DNA from: Bernardetia sp.
GTDB taxonomy: Bacteria; Bacteroidota; Bacteroidia; Cytophagales; Bernardetiaceae
Length of the DNA stretch: 33,194 nt
NCBI RefSeq assembly: GCF_020630935.1
Contig: NZ_JAHDIG010000055.1
Span: 1 to 33,194 of the forward strand
Reading direction: 5' to 3'
In this document: positions 3,535 through 21,115 of the stretch, piece by piece
Layout: every line of letters begins with the position of its first letter
Numbering within the stretch: the first letter of the stretch is position 1
Made by a program: the position numbers and the translations under genes
The notes under the pieces: generated by a model
What the model saw: the letters and a program-made list of their open reading frames with translations, nothing else
Databases searched by the model: none
Told to the model about the DNA's origin: nothing

Positions 3535-3550
3535 TTTTACCTTTAAGTTT

Positions 3551-4732: not shown

Positions 4733-4737
4733 GTTAT

Positions 4738-4782
4738 CGGTCTGACCTTAGTTCATTAGGTCAGTCTTGCTAGAGCAGACCG
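4738..4782. repeat. Palindromic intergenic element after pseC
   Basis: An outer pair CGGTCTG (4738-4744) / CAGACCG (4776-4782) encloses an overlapping inner pair TGACCT (4743-4748) / AGGTCA (4758-4763), so the RNA could fold as a branched hairpin. A T-rich run follows about 10 bases later (4790-4800), so partial termination between pseC and the next gene is possible. It could also be a dispersed palindromic element. Confidence 0.5.
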
Positions 4783-4828
4783 TAAATAGTTTGTTTTTTC
4801 TCTATTCTTAAACAACTTAAATGTATAA

Positions 4829-5707
4829 ATGATTTCTTCAAACAAATACATACAAAAATTAGGTATTGGAACTGTTCAGTTTGGTTTAGATTATGGAATC
4901 AGTAACAATACAGGCAAAGTTTCTCAGGAAGAAGTAAGTCAAATTCTACAACTCGCTAAAAAAAAAGGAATCTCATATTTAGATACTGCTAGAGCATACG
5001 GAGATAGCGAGCAAGTAGTAGGACAAAATATTTCTACTGATAATTCATTCAAAATTGTATCTAAGTTTTCTCCTAATACACAAAATATACAACAAGAAAT
5101 AGAGACTTCTTTACGTCATTTGCAAGCAGACAGTATTTATGCTTATCTGTTTCATGACTATGATACATTTATTAAATCTCCCTCTTTATGGGAAGAGTTA
5201 AAGGATATAAAATCACAAGGTAAAGTTAAAAAAATAGGTTTTTCGTTATATTATCCATCTCAATTAGAAACTCTTTTTGAAAAAAATATTGATTTTGATA
5301 TTCTTCAACTTCCTTATAATCTATTTGATAGAAGATTTGAATCTTATTTTGAAAAGTTAAATTCAAAAAATGTAGAAATACATATTCGCTCAGTGTTTCT
5401 ACAAGGTTTATTTTTTATGAATAAGAAAGATTTGTCTTCTCATTTTGATTCTTCCCTTGAAAAACTATCTCATTTACATACTTTAGCCGAAAAATATAAC
5501 CTCCAAAAAGCTACTTTACCTTTATTTTTTGTCCTGAATAACCCTAACATAGATATTGCTCTTTTAGGTTTGAGTGGAATTTCTGACTTAGAACAAAATT
5601 TAAGTATCATTGAAGAATTTGAAAAAATTGAGAAATTGGAACTAGACTTATCTTCTTTCAAAGAAGAAAAGGAGGAAATTATATTACCTTTTTTATGGAA
5701 AAAATAA
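4829..5707 (+). CDS. Aldo/keto reductase in nonulosonate cluster
   Basis: A 292-residue NAD(P)H-dependent aldo/keto reductase with the whole catalytic tetrad in place: Asp52 and Tyr57 in YLDTARAYGDSE, Lys79 in IVSKF and His109 in YLFHDYD. The N-terminal LGIGTVQFGLDYG is the usual first strand and turn. It sits between the PseC gene and an SDR/cytidylyltransferase pair. No canonical pseudaminic acid step needs an AKR, so it may modify a carbonyl on a precursor or on the side chain made by the neighbouring tailoring genes. That role is inference; the family is secure. Its stop overlaps the preferred start of the next gene by one base (TAATG). Confidence 0.85.
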   Translation: MISSNKYIQKLGIGTVQFGLDYGISNNTGKVSQEEVSQILQLAKKKGISYLDTARAYGDSEQVVGQNISTDNSFKIVSKFSPNTQNIQQEIETSLRHLQADSIYAYLFHDYDTFIKSPSLWEELKDIKSQGKVKKIGFSLYYPSQLETLFEKNIDFDILQLPYNLFDRRFESYFEKLNSKNVEIHIRSVFLQGLFFMNKKDLSSHFDSSLEKLSHLHTLAEKYNLQKATLPLFFVLNNPNIDIALLGLSGISDLEQNLSIIEEFEKIEKLELDLSSFKEEKEEIILPFLWKK

Positions 5708-6480
5708 TGAATTTATTATCACTATCACAGAAAAATGTATTGGTTACAGGTGGTTATGGCTACTTGGGAAAAGCAATTTGTGAAGGTTTGGCAGAAGCTG
5801 GTGCAAGTGTGGTAGTTTTAGCAAAATCAGAGGAGAAGTTTCAGACTGCCTTTGCAGAATCGCCTTTTAAAGCAAACATACATTTTCATACTTTTGATAT
5901 TTCAGATACTGATTCTATTCGAAAAGGATTTGAAGAAGTCAATAAGCAATTTGGAAAAATAGATGTGCTGATAAATAATGCTTTTTATTCTAAAGGACAA
6001 TCACCAGAAAAAATGAGTGATGAAGATTGGAATTATGGAATTGATGGCAATTTGAATGCTACTTACAGATGTATTCGGGAGGTAATTCCTTATTTAAAAG
6101 AAAATGGAGGAAAAATTATTAATGTATCTTCTATGTACGGTCTGATTTCTCCTGATTTCTCCATATATCAAGACAATAATTTTTTAAATCCACCTCATTA
6201 TGGAACAGCCAAAGCTGGAGTTCTACAGCTCACTCGTTATTTTGCCTGTTATTTAGGAAAAGATAATATCCAAGTAAATGCTATTACACCCGGTGCATTT
6301 CCAAGTGAGGAAGTACAAAAACACAAAGAATTTATAGAAAGTCTAAAAAATAAATCACCACTCAAAAAAATAGGCAAACCAGAAGATTTAAAAGGAGCTT
6401 TTGTTCTTTTAAGTTCAGAAGCATCTAATTTTATTACTGGACAAAACATTGTGATAGATGGAGGCTGGACAGCATGGTAA
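5707..6480 (+). CDS. Short-chain dehydrogenase/reductase (PtmA-like position)
   Basis: Classical NAD(P)-dependent SDR. From the ATG at 5707 it has 257 residues: dinucleotide motif TGGYGYLG (14-21), NNA of the central strand (near 90-92), catalytic serines in NVSSMYG (141-142), YGTAK with Tyr165 and Lys169, and a C-terminal FITGQNIVIDGGW typical of the family. A second in-frame ATG four codons earlier (5695) would overlap the AKR gene by 13 bp. I prefer 5707, which overlaps its stop by one base. SDRs occur beside nonulosonate cytidylyltransferases in other bacteria (PtmA beside PtmB in Campylobacter), but the substrate here is unknown. The stop overlaps the next gene by 7 bp, indicating translational coupling. 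Confidence 0.87.
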   Translation: MNLLSLSQKNVLVTGGYGYLGKAICEGLAEAGASVVVLAKSEEKFQTAFAESPFKANIHFHTFDISDTDSIRKGFEEVNKQFGKIDVLINNAFYSKGQSPEKMSDEDWNYGIDGNLNATYRCIREVIPYLKENGGKIINVSSMYGLISPDFSIYQDNNFLNPPHYGTAKAGVLQLTRYFACYLGKDNIQVNAITPGAFPSEEVQKHKEFIESLKNKSPLKKIGKPEDLKGAFVLLSSEASNFITGQNIVIDGGWTAW

Positions 6481-7304
6481 AACATAATGTAGGAATTATC
6501 ATACAAGCTCGTATGGGTTCGACACGTTTGGAAGGAAAAATTCTTTTCAAATTACCTTATAGAAGTTCTGTATCTGTATTAGAACAAATCATTCGAAGAG
6601 CAAAAGCTACAAAAAATGCAGATAAGGTAGTTGTAGCCTCATCTATAAATTCTGAAAATGATATTTTAGAAAATATTCTGAAAGATAAATGTTTACTATT
6701 TAGAGGAGATGAAGAAAATGTTCTATCTAGGTTTTACAGCATTGCTAAAGAAAATAATTTTGAAACAATAGTCAGACTGACAGCCGACAATCCTTGTTTT
6801 GACCCTATTTACATAGAAAAAGCAATCTCAGAACACATTTCTAATAACGCTGATTATACCTACACAAAAGGACTTCCTTTAGGTATGAATGTAGAAGTAT
6901 TATCTTTTTCGGCTTTAGAAGAAGCTCACCAAAATGCTTCAAAAAAAGCAGAGACAGAACATGTTACACCATATATTACTTCTAAGCCACAAAAATATAA
7001 ACTTCATTATCCTCAAGTGATTTCTAAAAAAGAAGAAATAGAAAAATGGCGTCTGACAATGGACAACCCAACAGATTATTCTTTAATGTGCTTACTTTAT
7101 GAAAATTTGTATAAAGATAATCCTCTCTTTGGCTGGAAAGAAATAAATACTTTTCTAAGTCAAAGACCTTGGGCAGTTGCTATCAATCAAAGCAATTTTC
7201 AAAAACAAATATTTACTTCTTTTGAAGAGGAAAAAACAACAGCTATTCAACTACTACGACAAAATGATTTGTTACATACTGCAAACTATCTAAATAAGTT
7301 ATAA
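6474..7304 (+). CDS. SpsF/PseF-like cytidylyltransferase
   Basis: A 276-residue nucleotidyltransferase of the SpsF family (COG1861 type), expected to activate the nonulosonic acid as its CMP derivative. The N-terminal nucleotide-binding loop is QARMGSTR (11-18) followed by a GK, and the metal-binding segment reads RLTADNPCFDP (101-111). These differ from the IPARGGSK loop of NeuA/PseF, so this is the SpsF branch rather than classical PseF. It is the only CMP-transferase candidate in the block and lies directly before the PseI synthase gene, so I infer it fills the PseF step. The start ATG lies inside the end of the SDR gene. Confidence 0.85.
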   Translation: MVKHNVGIIIQARMGSTRLEGKILFKLPYRSSVSVLEQIIRRAKATKNADKVVVASSINSENDILENILKDKCLLFRGDEENVLSRFYSIAKENNFETIVRLTADNPCFDPIYIEKAISEHISNNADYTYTKGLPLGMNVEVLSFSALEEAHQNASKKAETEHVTPYITSKPQKYKLHYPQVISKKEEIEKWRLTMDNPTDYSLMCLLYENLYKDNPLFGWKEINTFLSQRPWAVAINQSNFQKQIFTSFEEEKTTAIQLLRQNDLLHTANYLNKL

Positions 7305-7380
7305 TTTATATGTATTGAGGTAAGATTTTTATTTGTGATAGAATAAATATTCTATTTATTTTGAAAATAGTATGTCCACT

Positions 7381-7396
7381 ATGCTACTAGCATTTT
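7381..7396 (+). terminator. Weak hairpin with T-run before pseI
   Basis: ATGCT / AGCAT stem with a 3-base loop followed directly by six T residues, in the 151-bp spacer between the cytidylyltransferase and the synthase. The stem is only 5 bp, so this is at best an attenuator or weak terminator. The same spacer holds a perfect GAATA-AA-TATTC palindrome further upstream. Confidence 0.3.
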
Positions 7397-7455
7397 TTGC
7401 AGAGATACACATCATCAATTTTTTAGAGTACAATAAAATTTGAAATACTATTAAA

Positions 7456-8475
7456 ATGAAGACAATAAAATTAACTGATAAATATACAATAGGAGAAGAT
7501 AAAGTTTTTGTTATTGCAGAAATTGGCTCTAATCATAATCAAAGCCTTGAGTTAGCTTATGAAACTATTGATGCAGCCAAAGAAGCAGGAGCAGATGCTG
7601 TAAAATTTCAATCTATCAGTGTAGATAAGTTGTACATAAATCCTAGCAAAGAAACTATTGAGTTACACAAAAGAATTGATTTACCTGAAGAGTGGCACTA
7701 CCTTCTACATGATTACTGCAAAAAGAAAGATATTTTATTTTTTTCCTCTCCTACGTATCTGGAATCTATTGATATTTTAGAAGAACTTAATACTCCTATT
7801 TACAAACTTGCCTCGGCTCAAGTTGGTACATTTCCCCAACTTGTTGAAAAGGTAGCTTCTCTACATAAGCCTACCATACTCTCAACAGGTTTGGTAAACT
7901 ATGGCGATTTGGAAAAAGTGGTACAGATTTTTGAAAAGGCTAAAAATGACAAATACATCATTCTACATTGCAATAGTATTTATCCAACTCCTTTTGAAAG
8001 AGTGCATTTGCCTTTAATGGATACTTATAAAACTATGTTTGACTGCATTGTTGGCTTTTCTGACCACACAACAGATATTTTTGCATCTATTGCAGCCGTA
8101 GCTAGAGGCGCAAAAGTAATCGAAAAACATTTTGCTATGAGTCGCTCACTACCTGTTCCTGACGCTCCTTTTTCATTAGAACCCGAAGAGTTGAAACACA
8201 TGATTGAAGGAATAAGAGCAACAGAAAAAATGCTCAAACCTAATGTAAGACTAGATATTGAACAGGAAGAAAGAGGTTTCAAAAATGCCATTGCTACTCG
8301 TTTGGTCTTGAATAAAGATAAAAAAGCTGGAGATTCTTTACAAAAAGATGATTTTATATTTAGAAGAAATAAAGAGGGGATAAATTGTTCTGAATTGGAC
8401 AGTATTCTTGATAAGAAATTAAATACTGATGTAAAGCAGTTTAGTATTTTAAAAAAATCTTATATCATTCGATAA
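7456..8475 (+). CDS. pseI: Nonulosonic acid synthase, PseI/NeuB family
   Basis: Condenses phosphoenolpyruvate with a 6-deoxy-diacetamido hexose to form the nine-carbon sugar. It has 339 residues and a TIM-barrel with AEIGSNHNQSLE (21-32), the strand DAVKFQ (47-52), LHCNSIYPTP, GFSDHT and IEKHF, all hallmark NeuB-family blocks. A C-terminal SAF/antifreeze-like domain (RLVLNKDKKAGDSL onward) covers the active site in dimers of this family. The substrate-side loop reads PVPDAPFSLEPEE and lacks the PDH of sialic acid synthases. PseB and PseC upstream and PseG downstream argue for pseudaminic rather than legionaminic acid, but the sequence alone does not prove it. The spacer before it is 151 bp, the longest in the block. 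Confidence 0.9.
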   Translation: MKTIKLTDKYTIGEDKVFVIAEIGSNHNQSLELAYETIDAAKEAGADAVKFQSISVDKLYINPSKETIELHKRIDLPEEWHYLLHDYCKKKDILFFSSPTYLESIDILEELNTPIYKLASAQVGTFPQLVEKVASLHKPTILSTGLVNYGDLEKVVQIFEKAKNDKYIILHCNSIYPTPFERVHLPLMDTYKTMFDCIVGFSDHTTDIFASIAAVARGAKVIEKHFAMSRSLPVPDAPFSLEPEELKHMIEGIRATEKMLKPNVRLDIEQEERGFKNAIATRLVLNKDKKAGDSLQKDDFIFRRNKEGINCSELDSILDKKLNTDVKQFSILKKSYIIR

Positions 8476-8487
8476 TTTTCAATAAAA

Positions 8488-10347
8488 ATGAAAAATAAGT
8501 ACCTAAAATTTTCTTTTTTTCTATTTTTAGCAATCATTACAAATCCTTTTTTCACGAAGGAAGTGCTTGAATTGAGCTTTGTAGTACACAGTTATGTTTA
8601 TCAACTACTTACTGGCATTTTATCTCTTACTTTTCTAAGTATTAGTATAGTTGTTATACTTTCAAAAGAGGAGAATCTAATTCGTTTTTTAAAGCCTAAA
8701 ATCAATAGATACGAAGATTACTTAAACAGACATTATATAGATGAGAAGCTAAATCCAAATATATTAGCTATTTATCGTATTTCTTTCTCTATCGTAAACT
8801 TTATTCTGATTTATAATTATTTCTTATTTTTTGATGTAATATGGTTTCATATTGAATACGAATCAAATATACTACTATTAAAATCTGCTCTATGGGTCTG
8901 GTTATTAGCTTCTTTACTACTTCTTTTTGGTATAGGAGGGAGGTTAGTTGGAGTTGTTCAACTCATTGTTGCTGTGTTTATTACACGAAATGTATATACT
9001 TTTGGTATTTTCGAATTCACGATTCTGTGTAATATTTGGGCTTTTGTTCTTCTTAGAACTGATTACAAATTCTCATTGAATAATTTTCTATATAAACAGA
9101 AGAATGTTCTTCGCTTTATTGCACTAACACCTAAACAAACCCCTGTTATTTTTTTATATGTATTGGGAATTTATTTTGGTTTCATTTTTTTATTAGCTGG
9201 TGTAGATAAACTCATTGACCCACTATGGTTTGAAGGGAATGGTTTTTATGCTTTTTGTACAATGCCTTGGACACTCCCAAAGTATTTAGAGTTTATAACG
9301 AGGAGTAGAATAATAACTTATATAGCCAACTATTCTTCCGTCTTTATAGAGATAATATTTCTTCCTTTATTTCTTTTTCGCAAAACACGAACATTGAGCA
9401 TTTGCCTTGCTACTACTTTATTCTTAGGTTTGATTTATCCTTTTAATATCTTCTTCATTGGTATTTATGCTGTTCTTTTTGGTTTTTTGCTATCTAGTAG
9501 TTTTCCTATATTTACATCACTGATTGATAATGAAGAAAAGAAATTACAAATACTTCTTCCTTTTTTGACAAAAAAACGTCTTATATTAGGTAGTGCATTT
9601 ATAGCCATTTATTTTATTTCGTACAATTTTTCTAAAATTTTATTAAACAGTACAATAAACAGCATAAATGCTATGCAAGAGGTTACAGAGACTATTCCTA
9701 GTTCAGACAGTTACGATCTCAACTCTTTGGTAGTAAAACATCAATCAGAGCAAGAAGAGTATTTGAATGATTTACACTTAGAAGAACTTTACTCATTTTC
9801 CAAAATATTAAAAACTTGGTTTATTCGGTTTTCAGAAGTAAAGTTGTTTTCTAGTAGGCATCTGATTGGTCAGTATGCATATAGAGTAATTATTACAAAA
9901 AAAGATGGAACAAAAGTAGAACCTATCAAATATTTTATGAAAGATAAAAGCAGAGGAGAATTTGATAGAAACTACTTTATGCTTAATATCTTTCAAGGCG
10001 CAATGTATATGCATGGAGATATGGCAAACCGACTAGCATATAGAATAAAATTAGAGCCTCGCTATGTTCTTATATATCGTTTTTTGCATTACTCTGCACA
10101 AAAATCTAATTTAGATATGAATGAGATAGCATATATTTCTACTTTTGTTGCTCCTATAAAAGTACCTATAGAATATAAAGGTACTGTGAAACAAAATGAA
10201 AAAGAATGGAAGGAAATGATTAGGTTTTCAGAAGGTAAAGGTTATGAGATGATAGAAAAACCCATAATACAGCCTTACCAAGCTAGAAATATTAATCAAT
10301 CAAATTATCTTCCTAGGGTCTTATATAAATCTTTACAGAAAAAATGA
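8488..10347 (+). CDS. HTTM-like polytopic membrane protein
   Basis: A 619-residue membrane protein in the middle of the glycan block. About eleven hydrophobic segments are visible (near 8-22, 34-58, 93-116, 131-149, 153-166, 172-190, 219-238, 278-297, 301-316, 321-338 and 366-384). The segment AGVDKLIDPLWFEGNGF (237-253) resembles the HTTM family (horizontally transferred transmembrane domain, related to vitamin K-dependent gamma-carboxylase). Residues after about 390 form a soluble, charged tail of about 230 residues that I do not recognise. It starts 12 bp after pseI and overlaps the ATP-grasp gene by ATGA, so it is translated within the operon. Possible roles are membrane modification or handling of the glycan; neither is shown by the sequence. 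Confidence 0.7.
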   Translation: MKNKYLKFSFFLFLAIITNPFFTKEVLELSFVVHSYVYQLLTGILSLTFLSISIVVILSKEENLIRFLKPKINRYEDYLNRHYIDEKLNPNILAIYRISFSIVNFILIYNYFLFFDVIWFHIEYESNILLLKSALWVWLLASLLLLFGIGGRLVGVVQLIVAVFITRNVYTFGIFEFTILCNIWAFVLLRTDYKFSLNNFLYKQKNVLRFIALTPKQTPVIFLYVLGIYFGFIFLLAGVDKLIDPLWFEGNGFYAFCTMPWTLPKYLEFITRSRIITYIANYSSVFIEIIFLPLFLFRKTRTLSICLATTLFLGLIYPFNIFFIGIYAVLFGFLLSSSFPIFTSLIDNEEKKLQILLPFLTKKRLILGSAFIAIYFISYNFSKILLNSTINSINAMQEVTETIPSSDSYDLNSLVVKHQSEQEEYLNDLHLEELYSFSKILKTWFIRFSEVKLFSSRHLIGQYAYRVIITKKDGTKVEPIKYFMKDKSRGEFDRNYFMLNIFQGAMYMHGDMANRLAYRIKLEPRYVLIYRFLHYSAQKSNLDMNEIAYISTFVAPIKVPIEYKGTVKQNEKEWKEMIRFSEGKGYEMIEKPIIQPYQARNINQSNYLPRVLYKSLQKK

Positions 10348-11546
10348 AAAAAATACTTGTCATAGGTGCTGGCTGGGAACAGTATGCGCTCTTAGAAACC
10401 ATAAAAAAAGAGGGGCATAGTATTATTGCTACTCATCCAAATTTACAAGCACAGAGTTTTGAGTTTGCAGACCACCATTATATAAAAGAAAGTACAGACA
10501 TTGCAGCTCACTTGCGTATTGCACAAGCGCACAAAATTGATGCTATCTTGACAGATAATTGCGATTATTCATTTTATACAGCTTCTATAATTGCTTCCAA
10601 ATTAAATCTGCCTTTTGCTCCTATTGACTCAGCTATCTTATCAAACGATAAATTCGAACAGCGTGAGCGTTGCAATAATACAAAGGTTAGACAACCTATT
10701 TATCGCAAAGTAAAAACAATAGAAGCCTTAGAAGAAGCTGCTTCTCAGGTTGGTTTTCCATTGATTTTGAAACCTATTGATAGTCGTGGTACATTTGGGG
10801 TTACTATTATTAAAGAAGAAGAAAGTCTGAAATCAGCTTTTTATGATGCTATTTCTAACTCTCCTTCACACACACTTATTTGTGAAGAATTTATTGAAGG
10901 TACTTTAGTAACTGTTGATGGATTTTGCTTTAGCAATGGACACCAGTCTCTTGCTGTTGCTTCTCGTAAATTTGAAAAAGGTAGTAAGCCTGTTACGAAA
11001 GAAATTATCTATCCTGCACAATTTTCAGAGGATTTAAACAAAAAGCTACTTGAAAACCATAATGATGTAGTTTCTCTTTTGGGGTATCAGTACGGACACA
11101 CGCACGGAGAATATATAGTTAATCAGAATGAGGAAATATTTTTGGTAGAATGTACCAATAGAGGTGGAGGGGTTTATACCTCTTCTGTGATTGTTCCTTT
11201 ACTCACTCAAATTGATTTGAATAAAGTTTTACTTCATCAATCTTTAGGAACAGATAATTTTAAAGTAGAAAACATGGGGTTAGGTTTTATGAAAAAATCT
11301 GTAATGCTCACTTTCTTAGACTTTGAAGTAGGTAAAGTAATCAAATCTATCAATATGAACAATATGCTTTCAAAAGATTATACAGTTCGTTTTAGGAGCA
11401 TTTATGGAGAAAATGATATGGTAGAGTCTATCGAAAATTGTGCATCTCGTCATTCTATGTTAGTGATTCAAGGTGCAGATAGTAAACAGACTTTATCAAA
11501 TTTTTCTGACTTTAAAAAAGAACTAACTATTGAATATTATAAATAA
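10344..11546 (+). CDS. ATP-grasp carboxylate-amine ligase
   Basis: A 400-residue ATP-grasp enzyme. It has an N-terminal Rossmann-like pre-ATP domain (ILVIGAGWEQYALL), lysines at 103 and 143 (LILKP) in the usual ATP-binding positions, the linker glutamates CEEFIEG (180-186), and the metal-binding segment LVECTNRGGG (268-276, Glu269, Asn272, Arg273). The family joins a carboxylate, through an acyl-phosphate, to an amine or thiol. Here it lies between a membrane protein and an HMGL-like aldolase gene, so the acid could be the product of that aldolase and the amine a deacetylated sugar. This pairing is inference. Start and upstream stop overlap as ATGA, showing tight coupling. Confidence 0.85.
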   Translation: MKKILVIGAGWEQYALLETIKKEGHSIIATHPNLQAQSFEFADHHYIKESTDIAAHLRIAQAHKIDAILTDNCDYSFYTASIIASKLNLPFAPIDSAILSNDKFEQRERCNNTKVRQPIYRKVKTIEALEEAASQVGFPLILKPIDSRGTFGVTIIKEEESLKSAFYDAISNSPSHTLICEEFIEGTLVTVDGFCFSNGHQSLAVASRKFEKGSKPVTKEIIYPAQFSEDLNKKLLENHNDVVSLLGYQYGHTHGEYIVNQNEEIFLVECTNRGGGVYTSSVIVPLLTQIDLNKVLLHQSLGTDNFKVENMGLGFMKKSVMLTFLDFEVGKVIKSINMNNMLSKDYTVRFRSIYGENDMVESIENCASRHSMLVIQGADSKQTLSNFSDFKKELTIEYYK

Positions 11547-11599
11547 AAAACATTTTGTTTAAATATTCTTATAAAAATTCAATTAAAAATAGTGAGATT

Positions 11600-12592
11600 A
11601 TGATAAATATTGTAGAAAATACGTTGAGAGATGGTTCTTATGTAATAGATTTTCAATTTGATAGATTCCAAACAGCACGTATTACAAAGGGATTGTATGA
11701 CTTAGGATTTGAATACATCGAAGTCGGACACGGATTAGGTTTAGGTGCTTGGAACAATCCTAAAACTGGTCTTTCAAAAGAAGATGACCAAACGTATGTA
11801 AGAGCAGCCAAAGAAGCTGCTCCAAATGCCAAAATTGGAACTTTCTTTATCCCAAATATCGGTACAAAGGAAGATATTGATAAAGCTGTAGATGCAGGAA
11901 TTAGTTTTATCAGAATTGGAAACAATGTAGATTACTTTGAAAGAATACGAGAGTATGCTGAATATGCAAAGAAAAAAGGACTTATTGTAGGAGTAAATCT
12001 TATGAAAAGCTATGGAGTAAAATCGTATGAGTTTACCAAAATTGTTCAAGAAATAGACAAATGGCAAACTTCTGATGCCATCTATTTAGTAGATTCAGCA
12101 GGTTGTATGATGCCACACGAAGTGTACGAATACATAGACCGAACCAAGCAAGTCATACAAACACATTTAGGGTTTCATGGACACAATAACTTAGGATTAG
12201 CGATTGCAAACTCTTTAGAAGCTGTTAGAGCTGGAGCAAATTATGTAGATACCTGTGTGCGTGGAATGGGCAGAAGTGCAGGCAATGCACAAAGTGAAAT
12301 TGTAGTTCATTTACTACAAAAAATGGGAATTAGCCCCATTGATACTGAAATCTATGATTTTTATGAATTTGCAAATAAAGAAATTGTACCTCTTATGCCA
12401 CGAGTGCAAGGTCTTACAGATGAGGAAATTCATATTGGAATTAGTCGTTTTCATACCAGTTATATGCCAGTAGTAAATGCAACCTCTGAAAAATTCAATG
12501 TTGATAAAAAACGATTAATTAAAAAAGTTTCAGATATTAATTGCATTAATCCTAGCCAAGAGTTGTTTGAAGAAATAGCGATGACTTTGTAA
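11600..12592 (+). CDS. HMGL-like aldolase (DmpG / isopropylmalate synthase fold)
   Basis: A 330-residue TIM-barrel enzyme of the pyruvate carboxyltransferase/HMG-CoA lyase superfamily, most like the aldolase domain of 4-hydroxy-2-oxovalerate aldolases. Catalytic and metal residues are present: RDG (10-12, Arg10 and Asp11) in NTLRDGSY, and GFHGHNNLGLA (191-201) with His193 and His195. RGMGRSAGNA (221-230) is the expected glycine-rich loop. The frame is open upstream to a TTG at 11555, but the ATG at 11600 begins MINIVENTLRDG, the normal first strand. No aldehyde dehydrogenase partner (DmpF) is nearby, so aromatic degradation is unlikely. In a glycan operon beside an ATP-grasp ligase it may make or split a small hydroxy acid used as an acyl substituent (inference). 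Confidence 0.8.
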   Translation: MINIVENTLRDGSYVIDFQFDRFQTARITKGLYDLGFEYIEVGHGLGLGAWNNPKTGLSKEDDQTYVRAAKEAAPNAKIGTFFIPNIGTKEDIDKAVDAGISFIRIGNNVDYFERIREYAEYAKKKGLIVGVNLMKSYGVKSYEFTKIVQEIDKWQTSDAIYLVDSAGCMMPHEVYEYIDRTKQVIQTHLGFHGHNNLGLAIANSLEAVRAGANYVDTCVRGMGRSAGNAQSEIVVHLLQKMGISPIDTEIYDFYEFANKEIVPLMPRVQGLTDEEIHIGISRFHTSYMPVVNATSEKFNVDKKRLIKKVSDINCINPSQELFEEIAMTL

Positions 12593-12634
12593 ACCAAAAC
12601 AAATAAGATTACACTTTATTTACTTAATAATTTA

Positions 12635-13294
12635 ATGAAAGATACAATAGCCTTCAAAGAAATTTCAGAGCAGATGGTAAGTCGTTATTCCCAACGCTAC
12701 AAAAAATTAGGATACCATGTTCAAACACTCGGTTGGGGAAACACAGAACAACAAACCTATCGTTTCCAACAGACATTAGAGGGAATAAATTTTTCTAATC
12801 AAAAATCTATTCTGGATATTGGCTGTGGCTTTGGAGATTATTTAGCTCTCTTGAAGGCTCAGAATAAGGAGTTTCAAAATTATATTGGATGGGACATTAA
12901 TCCTGATTTGATTAGTGAAGCTCAAAAAATATGGTCAGAAGAGCAAAAAGCTAGATTTGAGGTAGCAAATATTGGAGAAACTGCTTTATCACAACCTGTG
13001 GCTGATGCAGCTATTATGTTAGGCGTTTTGAATCTGAACTTAAAAGATAAAGTAGATAATTATCAGTATTCTTTCAATTTTATCAAAAATGCTTTTTCTT
13101 TGGTCAATGAAGTATTGGTAGTAGATTTTTTGAGTGATAAACTAACAGATAATTATCCAAAAGAAGATTTTGTTTTTTATCATAATCCTGCAAAAATGCT
13201 AGACTTTGCCCTCTCTCTTACTCCAAATGTAGTTTTGAAGCATAATTATGCTGCCATTCCTCAAAAAGAGTTTATGCTTTTCCTTTACAAATAA
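12635..13294 (+). CDS. Class I SAM-dependent methyltransferase
   Basis: A 219-residue methyltransferase. SAM motif I is LDIGCGFGD (60-68) and the acidic end of strand 2 is GWDINPD, the residue that binds the SAM ribose. About 50 residues of N-terminal extension contain many aromatic and glutamine residues. The ATG at 12635 follows a 42-bp AT-rich spacer. The fold is clear, but substrate and atom methylated are unknown; in this block an O-methyl on the sugar or its acyl chain is a reasonable guess. The next gene follows after 7 bp. Confidence 0.8.
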   Translation: MKDTIAFKEISEQMVSRYSQRYKKLGYHVQTLGWGNTEQQTYRFQQTLEGINFSNQKSILDIGCGFGDYLALLKAQNKEFQNYIGWDINPDLISEAQKIWSEEQKARFEVANIGETALSQPVADAAIMLGVLNLNLKDKVDNYQYSFNFIKNAFSLVNEVLVVDFLSDKLTDNYPKEDFVFYHNPAKMLDFALSLTPNVVLKHNYAAIPQKEFMLFLYK

Positions 13295-13301
13295 AAAAAT
13301 A

Positions 13302-14114
13302 ATGCAGATTTTTGATTTTAATATTCATCTTCCTTTTATAGAACATGAAGATGTAAATGTAGTCATTGACCAAGATTTAAACCTTAATGTTGAAGGAATC
13401 TCTAAAGGTCTTCAAAAGCATCAAGAAACAATAAATAAAGCAGTTGGAGCTAATTTTTTATTGTTCAATACCAACCTTTTCGATGAAGATGTAACGCCAT
13501 TTTTTCAAAAAGCAAATCAACTCTTTGATAAAACTTCTTTTACAGCTTTAGTAGATTTTCGCAGATTTGATGCTTTTGAGTATATAGAAAAAGTAGTGAA
13601 AGCAGGTGCAAAAGCAATTATGTTTAATTCTTACCTACAAAAAATAAGTGAAGCAGATTTTGTAGAGGTAGGCAAAATATGTCAGTTTGCTCAAGAAAAA
13701 GGCTTAATTATTTGTATTGATGGAAGTTATGGAACTTCAAAGATGTATGCTTACGACAATCTAAAACTAGCTTGTTTTGTAGCTGATTTGGTTGAAAAAA
13801 CGCCTATTGTAATTGTTCATAGTGGAGGATATAGAATTATTGAGAGTATGCTTTTGGCTGCTGATAAGAAAAATGTTTGGCTAGATACTTCCTTTTCGCT
13901 TCCTTATTATATTGGTTCTTCTTTAGAGCAAGATTTTGCCTTTGTATATAAAAAAATGATAAATAGAGTAGTTTTTGGTACAGACCATCCGTATCATAAC
14001 TTTGATGAGGCTATCAAAGTACATAAAGATTTCTTTGAAAAACATAACTTTACATCAGAACAACAAGAACAGATTTTTTATCAGAATGCTCTTCAACTTT
14101 TTAATCTTGATTAA
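13302..14114 (+). CDS. Amidohydrolase-fold protein with altered metal site
   Basis: A 270-residue TIM-barrel protein of the amidohydrolase_2 (COG2159) type. The last-strand motif FGTDHPY (Asp228) and the strand 5-6 histidine VHSGG (His173) are clear. The first-strand HxH that binds metal in the family reads NIH here (Asn7, His9), so one ligand is replaced. It may therefore bind one metal differently, or act on a substrate without hydrolysis. The open frame reaches back into the methyltransferase gene, but the ATG at 13302, 7 bp after that stop, gives the normal MQIFDFNIH strand. Within the operon it could process the acyl side chain (inference). Confidence 0.65.
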   Translation: MQIFDFNIHLPFIEHEDVNVVIDQDLNLNVEGISKGLQKHQETINKAVGANFLLFNTNLFDEDVTPFFQKANQLFDKTSFTALVDFRRFDAFEYIEKVVKAGAKAIMFNSYLQKISEADFVEVGKICQFAQEKGLIICIDGSYGTSKMYAYDNLKLACFVADLVEKTPIVIVHSGGYRIIESMLLAADKKNVWLDTSFSLPYYIGSSLEQDFAFVYKKMINRVVFGTDHPYHNFDEAIKVHKDFFEKHNFTSEQQEQIFYQNALQLFNLD

Positions 14115-14125
14115 TTAATTTTTCT

Positions 14126-15610
14126 ATGAACAAACTTCTTATTCTTACTGAGGCAGGTAAGTCTATTGGTTATGGACATTATATGCGTTGCTCTGCACTA
14201 CAAAAAGAAGCTAAAAAGCAAGGTTTAAAAACAAAAATGCTTTTACATGTAAATGGAAGTGAGAGTTTTGAAGTAGAAGGAGAGATATATAACTGGCTGG
14301 AAGACAAAATATTGAAAATAAATATTCTCTCAAAGGAGTTTGATATTGTTTTGATAGATTCTTATTTGGCAAATGAAAATATCTATTCTGATTTGAAGCA
14401 AAATTTTAAAAAAGTTGTAGTAATAGATGATTACAACAGAATAGATTATGATGCAGATTTAATCATTAATCCGAATGTTTTCTTTGAGCAGATAGATTAT
14501 ACTAATCAAAAAGCAAAATGTATTGGGGGGAAAGAATTTGTACTGCTACGCCCTATTTTTATTTCTTCAAAAGAGCATGAAAATCGCCAAACAACGGATA
14601 AAAATATAGATAATCTTTTGATTACGATAGGTGGCACAGACTTTCGCAACCTCTTGCCTAAACTCATTAAAGTTTGCCTAAATCAAAATTTAAAAAAAGT
14701 ACAAGTTATTTGTCCACAAGAAAACGAACGAAAAGAATTAGAAAAAAAATTTCTTCGTAATGAGAATATTGAGATTTTGGGAAAGCAATCTGCTGAAGAA
14801 ATGCATGAGTTATATCTCAAAAACAACTTAGTTATATCTGCTTGTGGTCAGACACTGTACGAACTAGCAAGTCTTGGCAAACCTACTATTGGCATTTGCT
14901 TGGCGATTGACCAAGTTCCAAATCAGAAATATTATCTTGAAAAAAGTTTTTTGTTAGAAAATATCAATTGGGATGATATAAATATCGCAACAAAGATTAG
15001 TTCTCAAATAACTAATTTTCAAAACCTTGATTTGAAAAGGGTTATTCAAAATTATGCACCTACTTTAATAGGAAAAAATGGGGTAAATAAATGCATCGAA
15101 GCAATATTTTCTAATCAAACACTTACCTTCAGAACTGCTCAATTACAAGATGCCAAAATCTATTTTGAATGGGCAAATGATGAAGCTGTTAGAGAAAATG
15201 CTTTTAATAGCGAACCTATTGTTTGGGAAAATCACTTGGCTTGGTTTGAAAGTAAAATTGCTTCATCTTCTCTCTTACTACTCTTTTTTTTAGAAAGCTC
15301 AAATACTCCTATCGGGCAAGTTAGGGTAGATTGGAATACAGATACTCAAGATAGAGAAGAAAAAAATGGTTGGATAGATTATAGTGTTAGCAAAAACTAT
15401 AGAGGAAAAAAATTGGCTACTAAAATGCTCATTCATACTGTCAAGTTATTACAAAAACAACCTACTTCTATATCATTAAAAGGTATAGTAAAACAGGAGA
15501 ATATGGCATCTCAAAAAGCTTTTTTAAGAGCAAATTTTGAGCATATCGATAGCCAAAACGTAAATAACTTTGAGTGTCAAGTTTTTCAATACAAAACTGA
15601 CTTAAAATAA
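14126..15610 (+). CDS. pseG: PseG-PseH fusion: UDP-sugar hydrolase and GNAT acetyltransferase
   Basis: A 494-residue two-domain protein. Residues 1-about 325 are PseG/SpsG: GYGHYMRC with the catalytic His18, VIDDYN, ITIGGTD, and SACGQTLYELASLGKPTI near the end, a GT-B-like fold that removes UDP from UDP-2,4-diacetamido-trideoxy-altrose. Residues about 330-494 are a GNAT domain: LTFRTAQLQDAKIYFEWAND, YRGKKLATKML as the acetyl-CoA loop, and QENMASQKAFLRANF, the standard C-terminal helix. This matches PseH, which N-acetylates the 4-amino group before PseG acts. The fusion puts two consecutive steps in one chain. No separate PseH is present, so this domain is the likely one. Confidence 0.9.
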   Translation: MNKLLILTEAGKSIGYGHYMRCSALQKEAKKQGLKTKMLLHVNGSESFEVEGEIYNWLEDKILKINILSKEFDIVLIDSYLANENIYSDLKQNFKKVVVIDDYNRIDYDADLIINPNVFFEQIDYTNQKAKCIGGKEFVLLRPIFISSKEHENRQTTDKNIDNLLITIGGTDFRNLLPKLIKVCLNQNLKKVQVICPQENERKELEKKFLRNENIEILGKQSAEEMHELYLKNNLVISACGQTLYELASLGKPTIGICLAIDQVPNQKYYLEKSFLLENINWDDINIATKISSQITNFQNLDLKRVIQNYAPTLIGKNGVNKCIEAIFSNQTLTFRTAQLQDAKIYFEWANDEAVRENAFNSEPIVWENHLAWFESKIASSSLLLLFFLESSNTPIGQVRVDWNTDTQDREEKNGWIDYSVSKNYRGKKLATKMLIHTVKLLQKQPTSISLKGIVKQENMASQKAFLRANFEHIDSQNVNNFECQVFQYKTDLK

Positions 15611-15618
15611 TTGATTAA

Positions 15619-16326
15619 ATGATAAATTTTCAAGACAAAAAAATACTGGTAGTCGTGGCTCATCCTGACGACGAACTTCTAGGTGTGGGGGCAACGATGC
15701 ACCATCTTATCAACAACTATAATTGTCAGGTAAGGGCAATTATTTTAGGTGAAGGCATTACCTCTCGTTCTGATAACAGAGACAGAGAAAAATGGGAAAA
15801 AGAACTTCAAACACATAGAGATAATATTTATTCTGCTCAAAAATGTATTGGTTACCAAAGTGTAGGGATTTATGATTTTGCCGATAATCGTTTTGATACA
15901 GTCGCTTTACTAGACTTGGTAAAAGTAATTGAGAAAGAAAAACAAGAGTTTGAGCCTACTATTATTTTTACACACCACGGAGGAGACCTAAACATTGACC
16001 ATCGACGAACATTTGAAGCCGTCATGACAGCAATTCGTCCTATGGAAAATGAAAAAGTACAACACATTTTTACTTTCGAAACGCCTTCTTCCACTGAGTG
16101 GCAAGCCTTCAACTATCCCAACCCTTTCCAACCTAATTTTTTTGTGAGTGTAGATGAAGAAAATGTAGAAGCAAAAATTAAAGGAATGGAAAGCTATGAA
16201 TTTGAAAAACGCCCATATCCACACCCTCGTTCGCCAGAAGCCTTGAAAATACAGGCTAGACGTTGGGGAGTAGCCGTAGGAAAGCATTTTGCAGAAGCCT
16301 TTATGTATGTACGTGGAATTATGTAA
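15619..16326 (+). CDS. PIG-L family deacetylase
   Basis: A 235-residue LmbE/PIG-L type zinc-dependent N-deacetylase. It has the metal and catalytic motif AHPDDE (14-19) and the second metal site HHGGDLNIDH (119-128, His128). Family members remove N-acetyl groups from amino sugars. It is the last gene of the block, 8 bp after the PseG-PseH gene. A deacetylase after two acetylation-dependent steps suggests that one acetyl group is later exchanged for another acyl group, which would give the ATP-grasp ligase a free amine. That is inference; PIG-L proteins in glycan operons can also act on other sugars. Confidence 0.87.
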   Translation: MINFQDKKILVVVAHPDDELLGVGATMHHLINNYNCQVRAIILGEGITSRSDNRDREKWEKELQTHRDNIYSAQKCIGYQSVGIYDFADNRFDTVALLDLVKVIEKEKQEFEPTIIFTHHGGDLNIDHRRTFEAVMTAIRPMENEKVQHIFTFETPSSTEWQAFNYPNPFQPNFFVSVDEENVEAKIKGMESYEFEKRPYPHPRSPEALKIQARRWGVAVGKHFAEAFMYVRGIM

Positions 16327-16923: not shown

Positions 16924-18153
16924 TTATACTAAATCTTTTTCTATTTGCTCTACTTTTTCTTCTTCTTGATTAGAAAGCACCACTAAATTCCCATCATCTA
17001 AGGTCAATATATTGATTTCTTCATTTTTCAAGTATTCTCCTTTTTCTATAATTTTGTTTAAGGTTTCAACTATTTGAGTAGAATGGGTAGAAAAAACAAG
17101 TTGATTTTCTGGATGAGCAGTTGCATACCACACTAAAAACTCTGTGAGTGTTTTGTGTAACTCTGTTCTTACGTGTGCTTCTGGATGCTCTATAAACCTT
17201 AAAACAGGTCTTTGATGTAAAGCAGCTAAAAATAAATCTTGTACCATACGGATAAGTTCCTGCTGATGCGTAGAAGCATTTTGAAGATAGACATATTTTT
17301 CTGGCATTTCATAAAATATTTTTTCACCAAAAGAATCTGTCTGATATGTTCCTTGAAGAAGAGTATTGATAAGCTCAGTAGTAGATTCTATTTTCAGATT
17401 GGCATCTGTGCTAAACTTCATTACATCAAAAAACACATCCTTTAGTGTTGTATTTCTTTTAAAAACAGGCAGTACATTATTCTTAATATGCTGTACAAAA
17501 CGTAATTGGAAAAGTTCGTGTTCGGAATCAAAGCGTAAAAATCCTTTGTTTTTAAGCGTTTGTTCCATTTCATCAAAAATAGTCTGTACACGATTTCCGA
17601 TAGCAAACCAAATACTTCTATTGTTTGGAATATAAAGCTCTTGTGTATTGTCTCCAAAAACAATATTTAGTCTGGCTCTAAGTGCATCCAAAACCTCTTG
17701 CCACTCTTTTGAAGAACTATCCAAACCTTTATTCTTTAAGGCTACTAGCTCCTCTACGGCTTCAAAAGAATTATCTAATATTTTATCTCCAAAATCATCT
17801 ACAAAAAATAAATCTAAATCGTTGTTATCATTAATGTAAAAACAAACTAGCTCTCCAGAAGGAGTGTAATAGTCGATTGTAAAGTCTTCTAAATGCCTAG
17901 TAGAACCAAAATGATGTACAAAGGCAATTCGGACAGCTTGTTTCATTCGTCCGAAAAAGTTATGCCTAAAAATTTGAGGAGCATTTGCCGAAACTTCATT
18001 TATAATCTCATCTTGCAAGTGGTGCATAAAATAAGCTACTTTCATAAGGGTACTTTTCCCACAAGCATGCTCGCCCACAATGACATTAAATTTACGTAAA
18101 TATAGGTCAGCTTCTTTTATCTGCTTAAAATTCTTAATGTGTATTCTTTCCAT
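16924..18153 (-). CDS. AAA family ATPase (AAA_15/OLD-like ATPase half)
   Basis: A 409-residue ABC-type AAA ATPase of the RecF/OLD-like group. The N-terminal strand and Walker A are RIHIKNFKQIKEAD...GEHACGKST (27-35). A degenerate signature is NASTHQQELIRM, the Walker B/catalytic region is FIEHPEAHV (near 330), and STHSTQIVETL follows as the switch histidine region. The usual acidic or asparagine residue before PEAH is a histidine here. No TOPRIM domain follows, so it is not a full OLD nuclease, and no nuclease or toxin gene lies next to it. Such solitary ATPases occur in defence and in DNA metabolism, and neither is shown here. It ends 18 bp past a bidirectional terminator. Confidence 0.8.
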   Translation of the reverse strand: MERIHIKNFKQIKEADLYLRKFNVIVGEHACGKSTLMKVAYFMHHLQDEIINEVSANAPQIFRHNFFGRMKQAVRIAFVHHFGSTRHLEDFTIDYYTPSGELVCFYINDNNDLDLFFVDDFGDKILDNSFEAVEELVALKNKGLDSSSKEWQEVLDALRARLNIVFGDNTQELYIPNNRSIWFAIGNRVQTIFDEMEQTLKNKGFLRFDSEHELFQLRFVQHIKNNVLPVFKRNTTLKDVFFDVMKFSTDANLKIESTTELINTLLQGTYQTDSFGEKIFYEMPEKYVYLQNASTHQQELIRMVQDLFLAALHQRPVLRFIEHPEAHVRTELHKTLTEFLVWYATAHPENQLVFSTHSTQIVETLNKIIEKGEYLKNEEINILTLDDGNLVVLSNQEEEKVEQIEKDLV

Positions 18154-18298: not shown

Positions 18299-19186
18299 CT
18301 AAAAATTATTTAATTTTACCTCTGAAAATTTATATTTCTCTGTACTTTGAAATGTAATGGAATAATCAGATTCTCCTTTGAGAAGTTTTTCTACTAACTC
18401 TTTTTCCACAGGCAAATAAAAATAATTTGGATGTATTGCATCAGAAACAAATGTTCCTAAAGGGATAGAAAATTCTCCTGCATGTCCAACAAGTTGAATG
18501 TAGGCAGTAGGACTATTTTTAAACTCACTTTCTCCTTCAAGAACAAGTTTAAGAACGTGGTTATCTTTTATTCTATTTTCTAAGACAATCAGTCTAAGTG
18601 TTGCATCAGACTTTTTGAAAACAAGTTCTTTTCGCTCACGTAATTTATTTTTTGCTCTTATACTTCCCTCTGCCATTTTGTTTTTTTGATTGTTTTTAGG
18701 AGAAAAAAGTAACAAATAACGAGGCTGGACAATACCTTTATAAGATATAATAGGTTTGGAAGGATCTCCATTGTTAAATAAAGTGCCTACAAAGCGTTTT
18801 ATTTCTGCTAAAGAATCTGATTTTGTCATCGGAATAGACTCTGCCAATGCGCTAAACCTCGCAATTCCTGCATCCTGTCCAACATTAAAAACCAATCCAT
18901 TGACACGTAAAGTAGAATCCTTCGCCTTAGTAAAAGATGGATAGAGGCATATATTGACATTATCTTTATTTGTAGCAATTTGTTGTTCTGAATATTTAGT
19001 AATTTGAACCAAAAGAGGCTGGTTATTAGTATCATTCAAAACATATAATTCAGATGCTGGATAATCCGTACTATCTCCAAATTGCTGATAAGTAAAAGCT
19101 AACAAATTAGATATAGAAATACAGTTTATCATCAAAAAGAGCAATAAATAACGCCTCAGAACATAATTTTTTCTCTTGTTTTGCAT
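18299..19186 (-). CDS. Unrecognised secreted protein
   Basis: A 295-residue protein I do not recognise. The N-terminus has basic residues (KRKNYVLRRY) followed by a hydrophobic stretch LLLFLMINCISISNLLAF, a probable Sec signal, so it should be periplasmic or outer-surface. The remainder is soluble and mixed, with a short very basic patch (about 165-190, KNKLRERKELVFKK) and no recognised catalytic motif. It lies 22 bp downstream of the membrane-protein gene at 19209-20435, so both are probably co-transcribed and may act together in the envelope. Reality as a gene is supported by length, signal peptide and spacing. Confidence 0.7.
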   Translation of the reverse strand: MQNKRKNYVLRRYLLLFLMINCISISNLLAFTYQQFGDSTDYPASELYVLNDTNNQPLLVQITKYSEQQIATNKDNVNICLYPSFTKAKDSTLRVNGLVFNVGQDAGIARFSALAESIPMTKSDSLAEIKRFVGTLFNNGDPSKPIISYKGIVQPRYLLLFSPKNNQKNKMAEGSIRAKNKLRERKELVFKKSDATLRLIVLENRIKDNHVLKLVLEGESEFKNSPTAYIQLVGHAGEFSIPLGTFVSDAIHPNYFYLPVEKELVEKLLKGESDYSITFQSTEKYKFSEVKLNNF

Positions 19187-19208: not shown

Positions 19209-20435
19209 TTATTTTTCTCCTGTCATATATCTTCTCATTTCTTTTTCCAAAAGCAAACGTTCTCCCATTGTTAGTGATTCTACATCTATCAGAATACGAT
19301 AATCCATAGGACTTTCTTGTGCTTTTTTAAAAGCTACATTTACAGCATCTATCGGCTCGGCAATATTTTGAACCATCAATGTTAGTCCTGTTACAGATAC
19401 AACAGTCAGTTGAGCATCTTGTGGATTTACTGAATTGATAATAGGTAAGATATCATTTACTTCTGCTTTTGCAGTAATTTGCTCAAATGCTTTTATACCA
19501 AATAAGCGAGTAGAGTAAGAAATATTGCTTTCTCTAAATTCAATCTGTGTTTTACTAAAAGTAGCAGACAAAACGAATCCTATCCAAACTACTCCTGTGA
19601 TAATTCCTGATGCATAAAAAAGTGCAAAGGCAACTCCAAACCCTCTTTTGGGAAGTACCCAATTTTGAAGCAAATAGAGTCCTCCAAAAGTCATTATGCC
19701 AACAAGTGCAATCCAAAATACATTGTACGTATTATTCCAAACTGCCATGTCATCACTACCTTGTTTGATAATACTGATATTTATAGGGCGTGGCAAATCA
19801 TAACTAATTTCTGTAATTTGCAGAGTATCTGGAGGCATCATAAACTCTGCCAGTGGATAGTTGTAAGAAAGCTCTACATTGTCAGCATTGAGAAACTGCC
19901 TAGAAAAATTAGCATAACTCTTGTCCTCTGGATTCTGAACCAAGTAGACAGGAAAAGAAACAGTCGTTCTTAATTTGTTGATAAGCTGCTTTAGTACAGC
20001 TTTTTCACTATAAATTCCTAGTTCTATAGGTTTCAATCCCCAACGCACTAAAGAAATATTCAGTGTCAGTTCGTTTCTTGAAAATAAATTTCCTTGCCTA
20101 ATTGTCCAATCTCGCATTACCTCTATATGGCTAAAATTATCAAAGGGAATAGATGTAATAACTTCCTTCCCAAAATATTTTCGCTCTGAGACAATCAAGG
20201 CTTCTTTTTCTTTATCTATGGTTAGTTTTTTGATTTTACCCACTTTCAAATCCAATACGCCCAATGTCATGAGAGCAAGTCCAAAAATCAGCCAAAAGAA
20301 ACGTATTTTTTTATATACTTTTCTAAAAAAAATAAGTCCTATAAACACACAAAAAAAACCCACTCCGATAACAGCATAAGCAGGTACAAGAGATGAAATA
20401 AAAATGATTTGATGGTCTGTATAAATTGTTTCCAC
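19209..20435 (-). CDS. Unrecognised membrane protein
   Basis: A 408-residue protein with two N-terminal membrane segments (about 11-37 and 46-62), a soluble region of about 160 residues, and two more segments near 235-255 and 265-292. The last 115 residues are soluble and resemble a pair of alpha/beta repeats without known motifs. The segment after the first helices (KKLTIDKEKEALIVSERKYF) looks like the beta-rich PH-type domains seen in bacterial membrane proteins, but this is a weak resemblance. It is followed closely by the secreted protein gene. I cannot assign a function. Confidence 0.7.
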   Translation of the reverse strand: METIYTDHQIIFISSLVPAYAVIGVGFFCVFIGLIFFRKVYKKIRFFWLIFGLALMTLGVLDLKVGKIKKLTIDKEKEALIVSERKYFGKEVITSIPFDNFSHIEVMRDWTIRQGNLFSRNELTLNISLVRWGLKPIELGIYSEKAVLKQLINKLRTTVSFPVYLVQNPEDKSYANFSRQFLNADNVELSYNYPLAEFMMPPDTLQITEISYDLPRPINISIIKQGSDDMAVWNNTYNVFWIALVGIMTFGGLYLLQNWVLPKRGFGVAFALFYASGIITGVVWIGFVLSATFSKTQIEFRESNISYSTRLFGIKAFEQITAKAEVNDILPIINSVNPQDAQLTVVSVTGLTLMVQNIAEPIDAVNVAFKKAQESPMDYRILIDVESLTMGERLLLEKEMRRYMTGEK

Positions 20436-21084: not shown

Positions 21085-21115
21085 AAAAAATAAGTTTAAT
21101 TTTTTACCACAGTCC

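Follow-up and report, generated by a model that had tools for sequence, protein, structure and literature searches.

Chemical analysis has shown pseudaminic-type sugars of Shewanella to bear large O-methylated groups; in S. oneidensis the flagellin modification operon is sfmABCDE (PMC3765264). The sections of that paper used here describe a mono-N-acetylated sugar resembling pseudaminic acid (Pse; 274 Da) that carries C9H16O7 with up to two further CH2, an O-methylated polyhydroxy moiety of 236-264 Da whose O-methyl was seen by nuclear magnetic resonance; on loss of the ATP-grasp protein SfmE the shift was slightly smaller than on loss of SfmA-D. In type B flagellin of Clostridioides difficile, a mutant in the ATP-grasp_4 gene CDR20291_0245 retains the core trisaccharide and loses the peptidylamido-sugar, according to the portion of PMC5207246 consulted, and an excerpt of another paper notes methyltransferases next to the Pse genes of Clostridium, their role being unclear (PMC13317340). 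Here we consider a 33,194-nucleotide stretch of DNA from Bernardetia sp. (Bacteroidota; contig NZ_JAHDIG010000055.1), called the window below, in which a pseudaminic-type operon at 2491-16326 contains an HMGL-like aldolase gene next to an ATP-grasp gene. The operon probably includes an N-acyl tailoring module, in which an acid made by aldol addition, then reduced and O-methylated, would be amide-linked to an amine of the nonulosonate.

At the family level the window shares with sfmABCDE a PseI-like synthase, a short-chain dehydrogenase/reductase (SDR), an S-adenosylmethionine (SAM) methyltransferase and an ATP-grasp_4 protein. The Shewanella operon differs in its thiamine pyrophosphate (TPP) enzyme SfmB, which perhaps takes the chain-building place, and the text of PMC3765264 makes no mention of an aldolase; no TPP-enzyme match was found among the window's operon proteins scanned. 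The C. difficile protein is of the ATP-grasp_4 family too, and is needed there for an amide-bearing flagellin sugar; the sugar, however, is a peptidylamido-sugar on a GlcNAc-rhamnose chain, and the genes named in that portion of PMC5207246 include no aldolase. Literature searches returned no paper combining nonulosonic, ATP-grasp and aldolase, none combining pseudaminic with 4-hydroxy-2-oxovalerate aldolase, and none giving an aldolase route to large O-methylated pseudaminic-type groups. The genes of the window operon, all on the + strand, are these:

2491-3534, +, PseB, UDP-GlcNAc 4,6-dehydratase (inverting); TIGR03589, 538.1 bits against a cut-off of 407.75
3551-4732, +, PseC aminotransferase, start taken from the open reading frame translation; TIGR03588, 490 bits against a cut-off of 423.5
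4829-5707, +, aldo/keto reductase (AKR), possible 2-oxo acid or sugar reductase; PF00248, expectation value (E) 1e-36
5695-6480, +, SDR oxidoreductase, candidate 2-oxo acid reductase; PF13561, E 2e-50
6474-7304, +, CMP (cytidine monophosphate)-sugar transferase; PF02348, E 2e-31
7456-8475, +, nonulosonate synthase of the NeuB/PseI family; PF03102, E 3e-74
8488-10347, +, polytopic membrane protein (earlier labelled HTTM), an insertion and not core; no Pfam match at cut-off
10344-11546, +, ATP-grasp_4 protein, predicted carboxylate-amine ligase; PF13535, E 2e-13
11600-12592, +, HMGL-like (DmpG-type) aldolase of the Tyr/His class, with Y14, F82 and H285; PF00682, E 1e-37
12635-13294, +, SAM methyltransferase, predicted O-methyltransferase of the acyl group; PF13649, E 5e-10
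13302-14114, +, Amidohydro_2 protein with N-x-H for H-x-H, possible lactonase; PF04909, E 2e-14
14126-15610, +, PseG-PseH fusion (hydrolase plus GNAT; Glyco_tran_28_C plus GNAT); TIGR03590, 141.5 bits, and TIGR03585, 26.1 bits, both below cut-off
15619-16326, +, PIG-L de-N-acetylase family protein, predicted to free an amine; PF02585, E 5e-20

In the proposed pathway the aldolase would join pyruvate and an aldehyde to a 4-hydroxy-2-oxo acid, a reductase would convert the 2-oxo to a 2-hydroxy group, and the methyltransferase would O-methylate the acid. The amidohydrolase would keep or make the free acid, for example by opening its gamma-lactone; PIG-L would deacetylate an N-acetylated position of the sugar, and the amine so freed would be joined to the acid as an amide by the ATP-grasp ligase, the acylated nitrogen by analogy presumably being N7. 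Gene families, the residue pattern, conserved gene order, co-occurrence with nonulosonate genes and a second activation set in other loci are observed; the chemistry throughout, the sequence of steps, the identity of the aldehyde and the nitrogen acylated are inferred.

The window's HMGL-like protein matches 4-hydroxy-2-oxovalerate aldolases of the DmpG/BphI type over nearly its full length, residues 16-343 including the C-terminal part (8ih7, 1nvm). It passes the cut-off of the broader PRK08195 subfamily (252.4 vs 229 bits) and misses that of the TIGR03217 equivalog (226.9 vs 286 bits); isopropylmalate, citramalate and homocitrate synthase models are weaker, at 98 bits or less. For comparison we took the best 80 loci from a scan of an 84,980-species collection, plus L008, L010 and L011 from other searches, and sorted the HMGL rows by the residues at BphI positions 20 and 290, BphI numbers being mapped to the window protein through the 8ih7 alignment. 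The window's class has Tyr/His at these positions and the DmpG type His/Tyr. Among 85 aligned rows, 33 are Tyr/His, 36 are His/Tyr and 16 have other combinations or are cut, the cut proteins of L060 and L069 being placed in neither class. The 33 Tyr/His rows comprise 30 loci, the window, L045 (Chlorobium ferrooxidans DSM 13031, the same locus as L010) and L088b, the last three standing outside the 30 counted below.

The two sorting residues are the class definition, and only gene context and the position of BphI Leu87 are independent of the sorting; at the latter, Phe occurs in 33/33 Tyr/His rows and Leu in 36/36 His/Tyr rows. Arg16, Asp17, His199 and His201, which we take to be the metal and pyruvate residues of DmpG/BphI-type aldolases, are retained in 69/69 rows including the window, a count that is partly selected, since the scan patterns contain parts of these motifs. 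The window protein thus keeps the metal and pyruvate residues of DmpG/BphI and differs in the exchange of His and Tyr (Tyr for His20, presumably the catalytic His of BphI, and His for Tyr290) and in Phe for Leu87. DmpG and BphI have an acylating acetaldehyde dehydrogenase encoded alongside; the window aldolase differs in its glycan-locus setting, and no such dehydrogenase was found among the operon proteins scanned. For BphI, the part of PMC3962088 consulted links Leu87 and Leu89 to the binding of the aldehyde and Tyr290 to stereochemistry at C4. In a maximum-likelihood tree a branch with 100/100 support separates the two classes when only the rows of those classes are counted; 14 ungrouped rows may fall inside the classes, and several long branches are unsure. 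L088b, a second and distant HMGL of L088, groups with another HMGL class.

Yet another class of HMGL protein, with TLRDGGYYTNW or a near variant, is encoded immediately before a gene resembling CMP-sugar transferases in L090 (10004-12853), L086, L091, L092 and L093; it is 512 residues long in L090 and L092, and in L090 the two genes overlap by 4 bases and are followed by what by eye is a HAD-phosphatase-like gene. In these loci an aldolase may supply an ulosonic acid for activation with CMP, in lieu of NeuB or KdsA.

The gene context of the two aldolase classes was scanned in the retrieved span, 10 kb on each side where the contig allows, with profiles iterated from window, Chlorobium and G393 proteins, with which divergent genes can be missed; the window itself is not among the 30 loci. 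NeuB was found in 11 of the 30 Tyr/His loci, NeuB or PseG in 12, and any of NeuB, PseG, PseB or CMP-transferase in 17 (the PseG of L030 counts only at a looser threshold and is absent under stricter counts). The sequence-only reading had staked its scheme on such homologues not being found mostly without nonulosonate genes, and with 17/30 the scheme withstood this test. ATP-grasp is present in 16 loci, on the strand of the aldolase in 15 of these and within 3.4 kb of it in 14 of the 15; 24/30 have a nonulosonate gene or ATP-grasp. In the 36 DmpG-type loci, NeuB, NeuB or PseG, and any nonulosonate gene all count zero, ATP-grasp occurs once, and any of these once. Fisher P-values are 5e-5 for NeuB (11/30 vs 0/36) and 2e-6 for ATP-grasp (16/30 vs 1/36); they carry no correction for relatedness and serve as guides, the loci being related. 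One His/Tyr locus, L027, has one PseC-type gene.

A second activation set was found in nine of the 30 Tyr/His loci (L016, L017, L018, L023, L026, L028, L032, L076 and L083), all without ATP-grasp: an AMP-binding ligase (forming acyl-AMP or acyl-coenzyme A, CoA) together with a PF04199 'cyclase' hydrolase. An aminoglycoside-type acyltransferase of the Antibiotic_NAT family accompanies them in all but L016 (8/9), a methyltransferase match in 5/9 (weak in L016), and a small protein in 7/9 whose Pfam matches are glyoxalase-like only and far below cut-off. The Pfam names come from L083 and L018, and the other loci were assigned via profiles seeded from these two, which may likewise miss divergent genes. 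Neither AMP-ligase nor PF04199 nor the acyltransferase was found in any of the 36 His/Tyr loci. The 30 Tyr/His loci therefore divide into 16 with ATP-grasp, nine with AMP-ligase plus PF04199, none with both and five with neither; of the last, L011 breaks off at the aldolase, and the stretches of L019 and L030 are shorter than 5 kb.

One aldolase class is thus paired with either of two unrelated acid-activating, amide-forming sets, and often with one of two unrelated hydrolases. Amide bonds are indicated because the second set holds an acyltransferase family known for amino sugars. To us the two sets are the best reason for reading the aldolase product as an acid destined for an amine. No nonulosonate gene was found in the second-set loci L017, L028 and L032, where the acceptor may be another amino sugar. 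Nonulosonate genes were not seen in 13/30 loci of the class as a whole, so acceptors other than a nonulosonate may also be used. We tentatively propose, and hold only a little less than probable, a widespread undescribed pathway in which the pyruvate aldolase with swapped His and Tyr, joined in some loci to a domain resembling a reductase, produces 3-deoxy-aldonic acids (2-hydroxy or 2-methoxy, 4-hydroxy) that are amide-linked to pseudaminic-type and other amino sugars via ATP-grasp, or via acyl-CoA ligase and aminoglycoside-type N-acyltransferase.

The order NeuB, ATP-grasp, HMGL, methyltransferase, amidohydrolase, PseG, PIG-L is identical in the window, in G008 of the same family, and in L014, Candidatus Thiobius zoothamnicola of the Pseudomonadota, so it is kept across a phylum boundary. 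Identities of the seven products to the window, in that order, are 73, 73, 73, 69, 71, 48 and 80% in G008; in L014 they are 63-71% for the first five and 44% for PseG and PIG-L. More distantly, the Chlorobium, Bacteriovorax and Woesearchaeota loci have ATP-grasp, HMGL, methyltransferase and amidohydrolase in one row with NeuB and PseG. The distribution is patchy, as if the module were a mobile unit: a ligase of more than 30% identity was found in one of 59 sampled relatives, G008 (search at E 1e-20), and the aldolase at E 1e-50 in three of 395 phylum-sample genomes, the window's own included.

The membrane protein does not belong to this conserved set. NeuB abuts ATP-grasp in L014, and in G008 the slot is held by an extra 372-residue protein that by eye looks like a methyltransferase; with no match in L014 or in the retrieved G008 stretch, its place in the tailoring module, which the sequence-only reading had assumed, was rejected. 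Its name HTTM is likewise unproven: no Pfam or NCBIfam model matched at E 0.001 and no PDB sequence at E 1, and at E 10 it drew MauE (0.017), DoxX (2.6) and one viral family, all below cut-off.

Methyltransferase relatives adjoin the ligase in G008, L010, L014, L020, L022 and the spirochaete G658. The last carries a module with no aldolase at its slot: PIG-L, ATP-grasp, amidohydrolase, PseG, NeuB and methyltransferase are present (G658:C79; L134, L137), most in duplicate, a PhyH-type oxygenase lies between ATP-grasp and methyltransferase where the aldolase would be, and the best aldolase-profile match reaches only E 1e-18. The acid maker seems to be exchangeable while ligase, methyltransferase and amidohydrolase persist, the aldolase being one of several acid makers. 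An ATP-grasp profile proved too broad as a marker (165/247 spirochaete genomes at E 1e-60), although it led to G658 and G511; the aldolase itself was found in 0/247 spirochaete genomes at E 1e-100, in a scan without a positive control. Two further spirochaete loci were seen on the way, L129 (G550:C90:1-20000) with a run of four ATP-grasp genes close to a PseC-type aminotransferase gene, and L132 (4350-10897), which carries NeuB, PseG, a CMP-transferase and a pair of ATP-grasp genes and where the profile found no HMGL.

Treponema denticola offers a chemical analogy. Its flagellin glycan is reportedly, in work of Kurniyati in 2017, a Pse-type sugar with a 2-methoxy-4,5,6-trihydroxyhexanoyl group, an acyl group of the kind expected from aldol addition, reduction and methylation. 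That structure agrees with the mass of 450.2 Da given in the part of PMC9481697 consulted, as 274 + 176 = 450 Da. As a proof case it was rejected: since the probable T. denticola genome, G612, has no aldolase-profile match, the structure is not creditable to this aldolase class. NeuB of G612 has no other profiled gene within about 9 kb.

The amidohydrolase had been left without a role in the sequence-only scheme, which had called it altered. This description was borne out, as the first His of H-x-H is replaced (N-x-H) and the K-x-H-P motif of L025 is absent. A structural model (six sequences; predicted local distance difference test, pLDDT, 83.6; predicted TM-score, pTM, 0.86) finds as its nearest fold a probable 2-pyrone-4,6-dicarboxylate hydrolase (E 4e-8), and lower down uncharacterised amidohydrolases, other lactonases, deaminases and decarboxylases. 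A 4-hydroxy acid readily closes to a gamma-lactone. Because of this, and because a PF04199 hydrolase accompanies the other activation set, we lean weakly to a lactonase, which the fold favours slightly and sequence less. In L020 (1720-3971), a short Omnitrophota contig, an amidohydrolase and a methyltransferase share a single open reading frame, and another amidohydrolase and the aldolase come next.

Reduction of the 2-oxo acid would fall, in the window, to SDR or AKR. An extra C-terminal domain is found on the aldolase of five loci, from Chlorobium (L010/L045), Hydrogenedentota (L019, L025), Cloacimonadota (L021) and Bacteriovorax (L022). That of L025 hits PF02826 (2-hydroxyacid dehydrogenase) at E 8e-5, and an AlphaFold2 model of it (five sequences; pLDDT 83.5, pTM 0.63) gives Foldseek matches at E 1e-8 to 1e-6, though at low TM-scores of 0.28-0.39, to D-2-hydroxyacid dehydrogenases, phosphite dehydrogenase, dipicolinate synthase A and S-adenosylhomocysteine hydrolase. 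A 2-oxo acid reductase is the natural guess, and an allied NAD (nicotinamide adenine dinucleotide) enzyme is possible.

Several observations weigh against the pathway proposed here, those low TM-scores being one. The match of the L025 domain to PF02826 stays just under the gathering cut-off (22.5 vs 25.1 bits), the other extra domains scanned (L010, L019, L021) do not match PF02826, and a profile search of PDB sequences with the L025 domain found nothing. Neither AKR nor SDR has a match in L014, so that a reductase is not conserved in the module. By sequence the nearest PDB entries to the amidohydrolase are uncharacterised hydrolases and 5-carboxyvanillate decarboxylases, the probable lactonase 4i6k being weaker at E 4e-7. 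PIG-L is not general: it was found in the company of the ligase only in G008, L014 and G658 (there twice, one copy short), and Pfam recognised no deacetylase in the more distant loci scanned. A NodB-type label given by eye in L010 and L022 was dropped, Pfam showing nothing relevant in L022 and in L010 a GH57 match below cut-off (E 0.013).

The division into two activation sets is blurred as well. L074 has ATP-grasp together with AMP-ligases, L022 has ATP-grasp and a weak opposite-strand PF04199 match, L037 and L078 have AMP-ligase alone, and AMP-ligase, N-acyltransferase and NeuB occur together in L088, a locus with a principal HMGL belonging to a third class (His/Phe). To these are added the 13/30 Tyr/His loci, some on short contigs, without a nonulosonate gene in the retrieved span, and the lack of an aldolase-profile match at E 0.001 in G612, G466 and G478 (G444 in the same search gave 1.6e-146). 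Only 5/30 Tyr/His loci combine ATP-grasp with NeuB or PseG, which counts against the full scheme of the sequence-only reading. That scheme, in which PIG-L frees an amine, the HMGL-fold enzyme supplies a small acid, the ATP-grasp enzyme couples it and the methyltransferase methylates it, gained from the association, the order kept across phyla and the alternative acyl-CoA set; it lost in that PIG-L is not general and that ligase, methyltransferase and amidohydrolase also occur without aldolase.

The same ligase could serve an HMGL enzyme that condenses an acyl-CoA with a 2-oxo acid, in the style of isopropylmalate or citramalate synthase, or that cleaves a larger acid. The HMGL fold does cover both chemistries, models of these synthases and of homocitrate synthase match weakly (98 bits at most), and the His/Tyr exchange suggests a chemistry or substrate unlike that of DmpG. 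We find this unlikely nonetheless, given the DmpG-type match over residues 16-343 with its C-terminal part, a PRK08195 score above cut-off (252 vs 229 bits) and the retained metal and pyruvate residues. Improbable, too, is that the extra genes act elsewhere in the glycan, the ligase attaching an amino acid or a peptide-like unit to a different amino sugar, with acetyl groups alone on the nonulosonate. The 13/30 class members without nonulosonate genes would fit such an arrangement, as would the commonness of ATP-grasp relatives in spirochaetes (165/247 genomes) and the C. difficile ATP-grasp_4 protein with its peptidylamido-sugar (PMC5207246, portion consulted). It agrees less well with the position of ATP-grasp, HMGL, methyltransferase and amidohydrolase between NeuB and PseG, with PIG-L following, in the window, G008 and L014, and with their being in a row with NeuB and PseG in Chlorobium, Bacteriovorax and Woesearchaeota.

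Surface-glycan loci are mosaic, and HTTM, AKR and SDR come and go, so unrelated sugar-tailoring genes might have hitch-hiked together with no joint pathway. Seven genes kept in order in three genomes, and 25/30 class loci with one of two activation sets and none with both as defined, make such chance neighbours very improbable, and we disfavour them. The reading that we prefer remains the tailoring module, with an aldol-made acid probably amide-linked to the nonulosonate.

As to the operon that surrounds the module, PseB and PseC pass the NCBIfam equivalog cut-offs (538 vs 408 and 490 vs 424 bits), while PseI (262.6/340.25), PseG (141.5/153.55) and PseH (26.1/93.1) miss theirs, and the NeuB protein scores higher as N-acetylneuraminate synthase (NnaB, 289.9 bits) than as PseI, both below cut-off. 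On equivalog scores the canonical Pse activities are secured for the first two, and 'complete pseudaminic-type operon' is a fair but loose reading. Pfam confirmed the families named for ATP-grasp, HMGL-like, methyltransferase, amidohydrolase and PIG-L; the last passes its PF02585 gathering score (72.9 vs 28.2 bits) and misses the BshB1 equivalog (38.9 vs 182.5), and in the ATP-grasp_4 protein K143, E269 and R273 are invariant in an 11-row alignment. The close spacing from which a translational unit had been read holds for the ATGA overlap at 10344 between membrane protein and ATP-grasp and for gaps of 12 bp (NeuB to HTTM), 7 bp (methyltransferase to amidohydrolase), 11 and 8 bp. It does not hold around the aldolase: with its start at the ATG at 11600, as homologues indicate, rather than at an upstream TTG, the gaps are 53 bp after ATP-grasp and 42 bp before the methyltransferase. 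Elsewhere in the window, four minus-strand open reading frames (18299-19186, 19209-20435, 20542-21156 and 26390-27436) are Pfam-blank at E 0.01, and the first adjoins one for an AAA_15 ATPase (16924-18153).

The module is real, patchy and recurrent, and its logic, ATP-grasp tailoring of pseudaminic-type sugars, is already known; what is new, within the literature searched, is an aldolase as the acid maker, together with the second activation set. For annotation it matters that, among named models, this HMGL protein scores best against a catabolic aldolase. The existence of two activation sets makes the amide-forming step directly testable, and the residue pattern of the aldolase is a handle with which genomes can be searched for sugars carrying large O-methylated groups.

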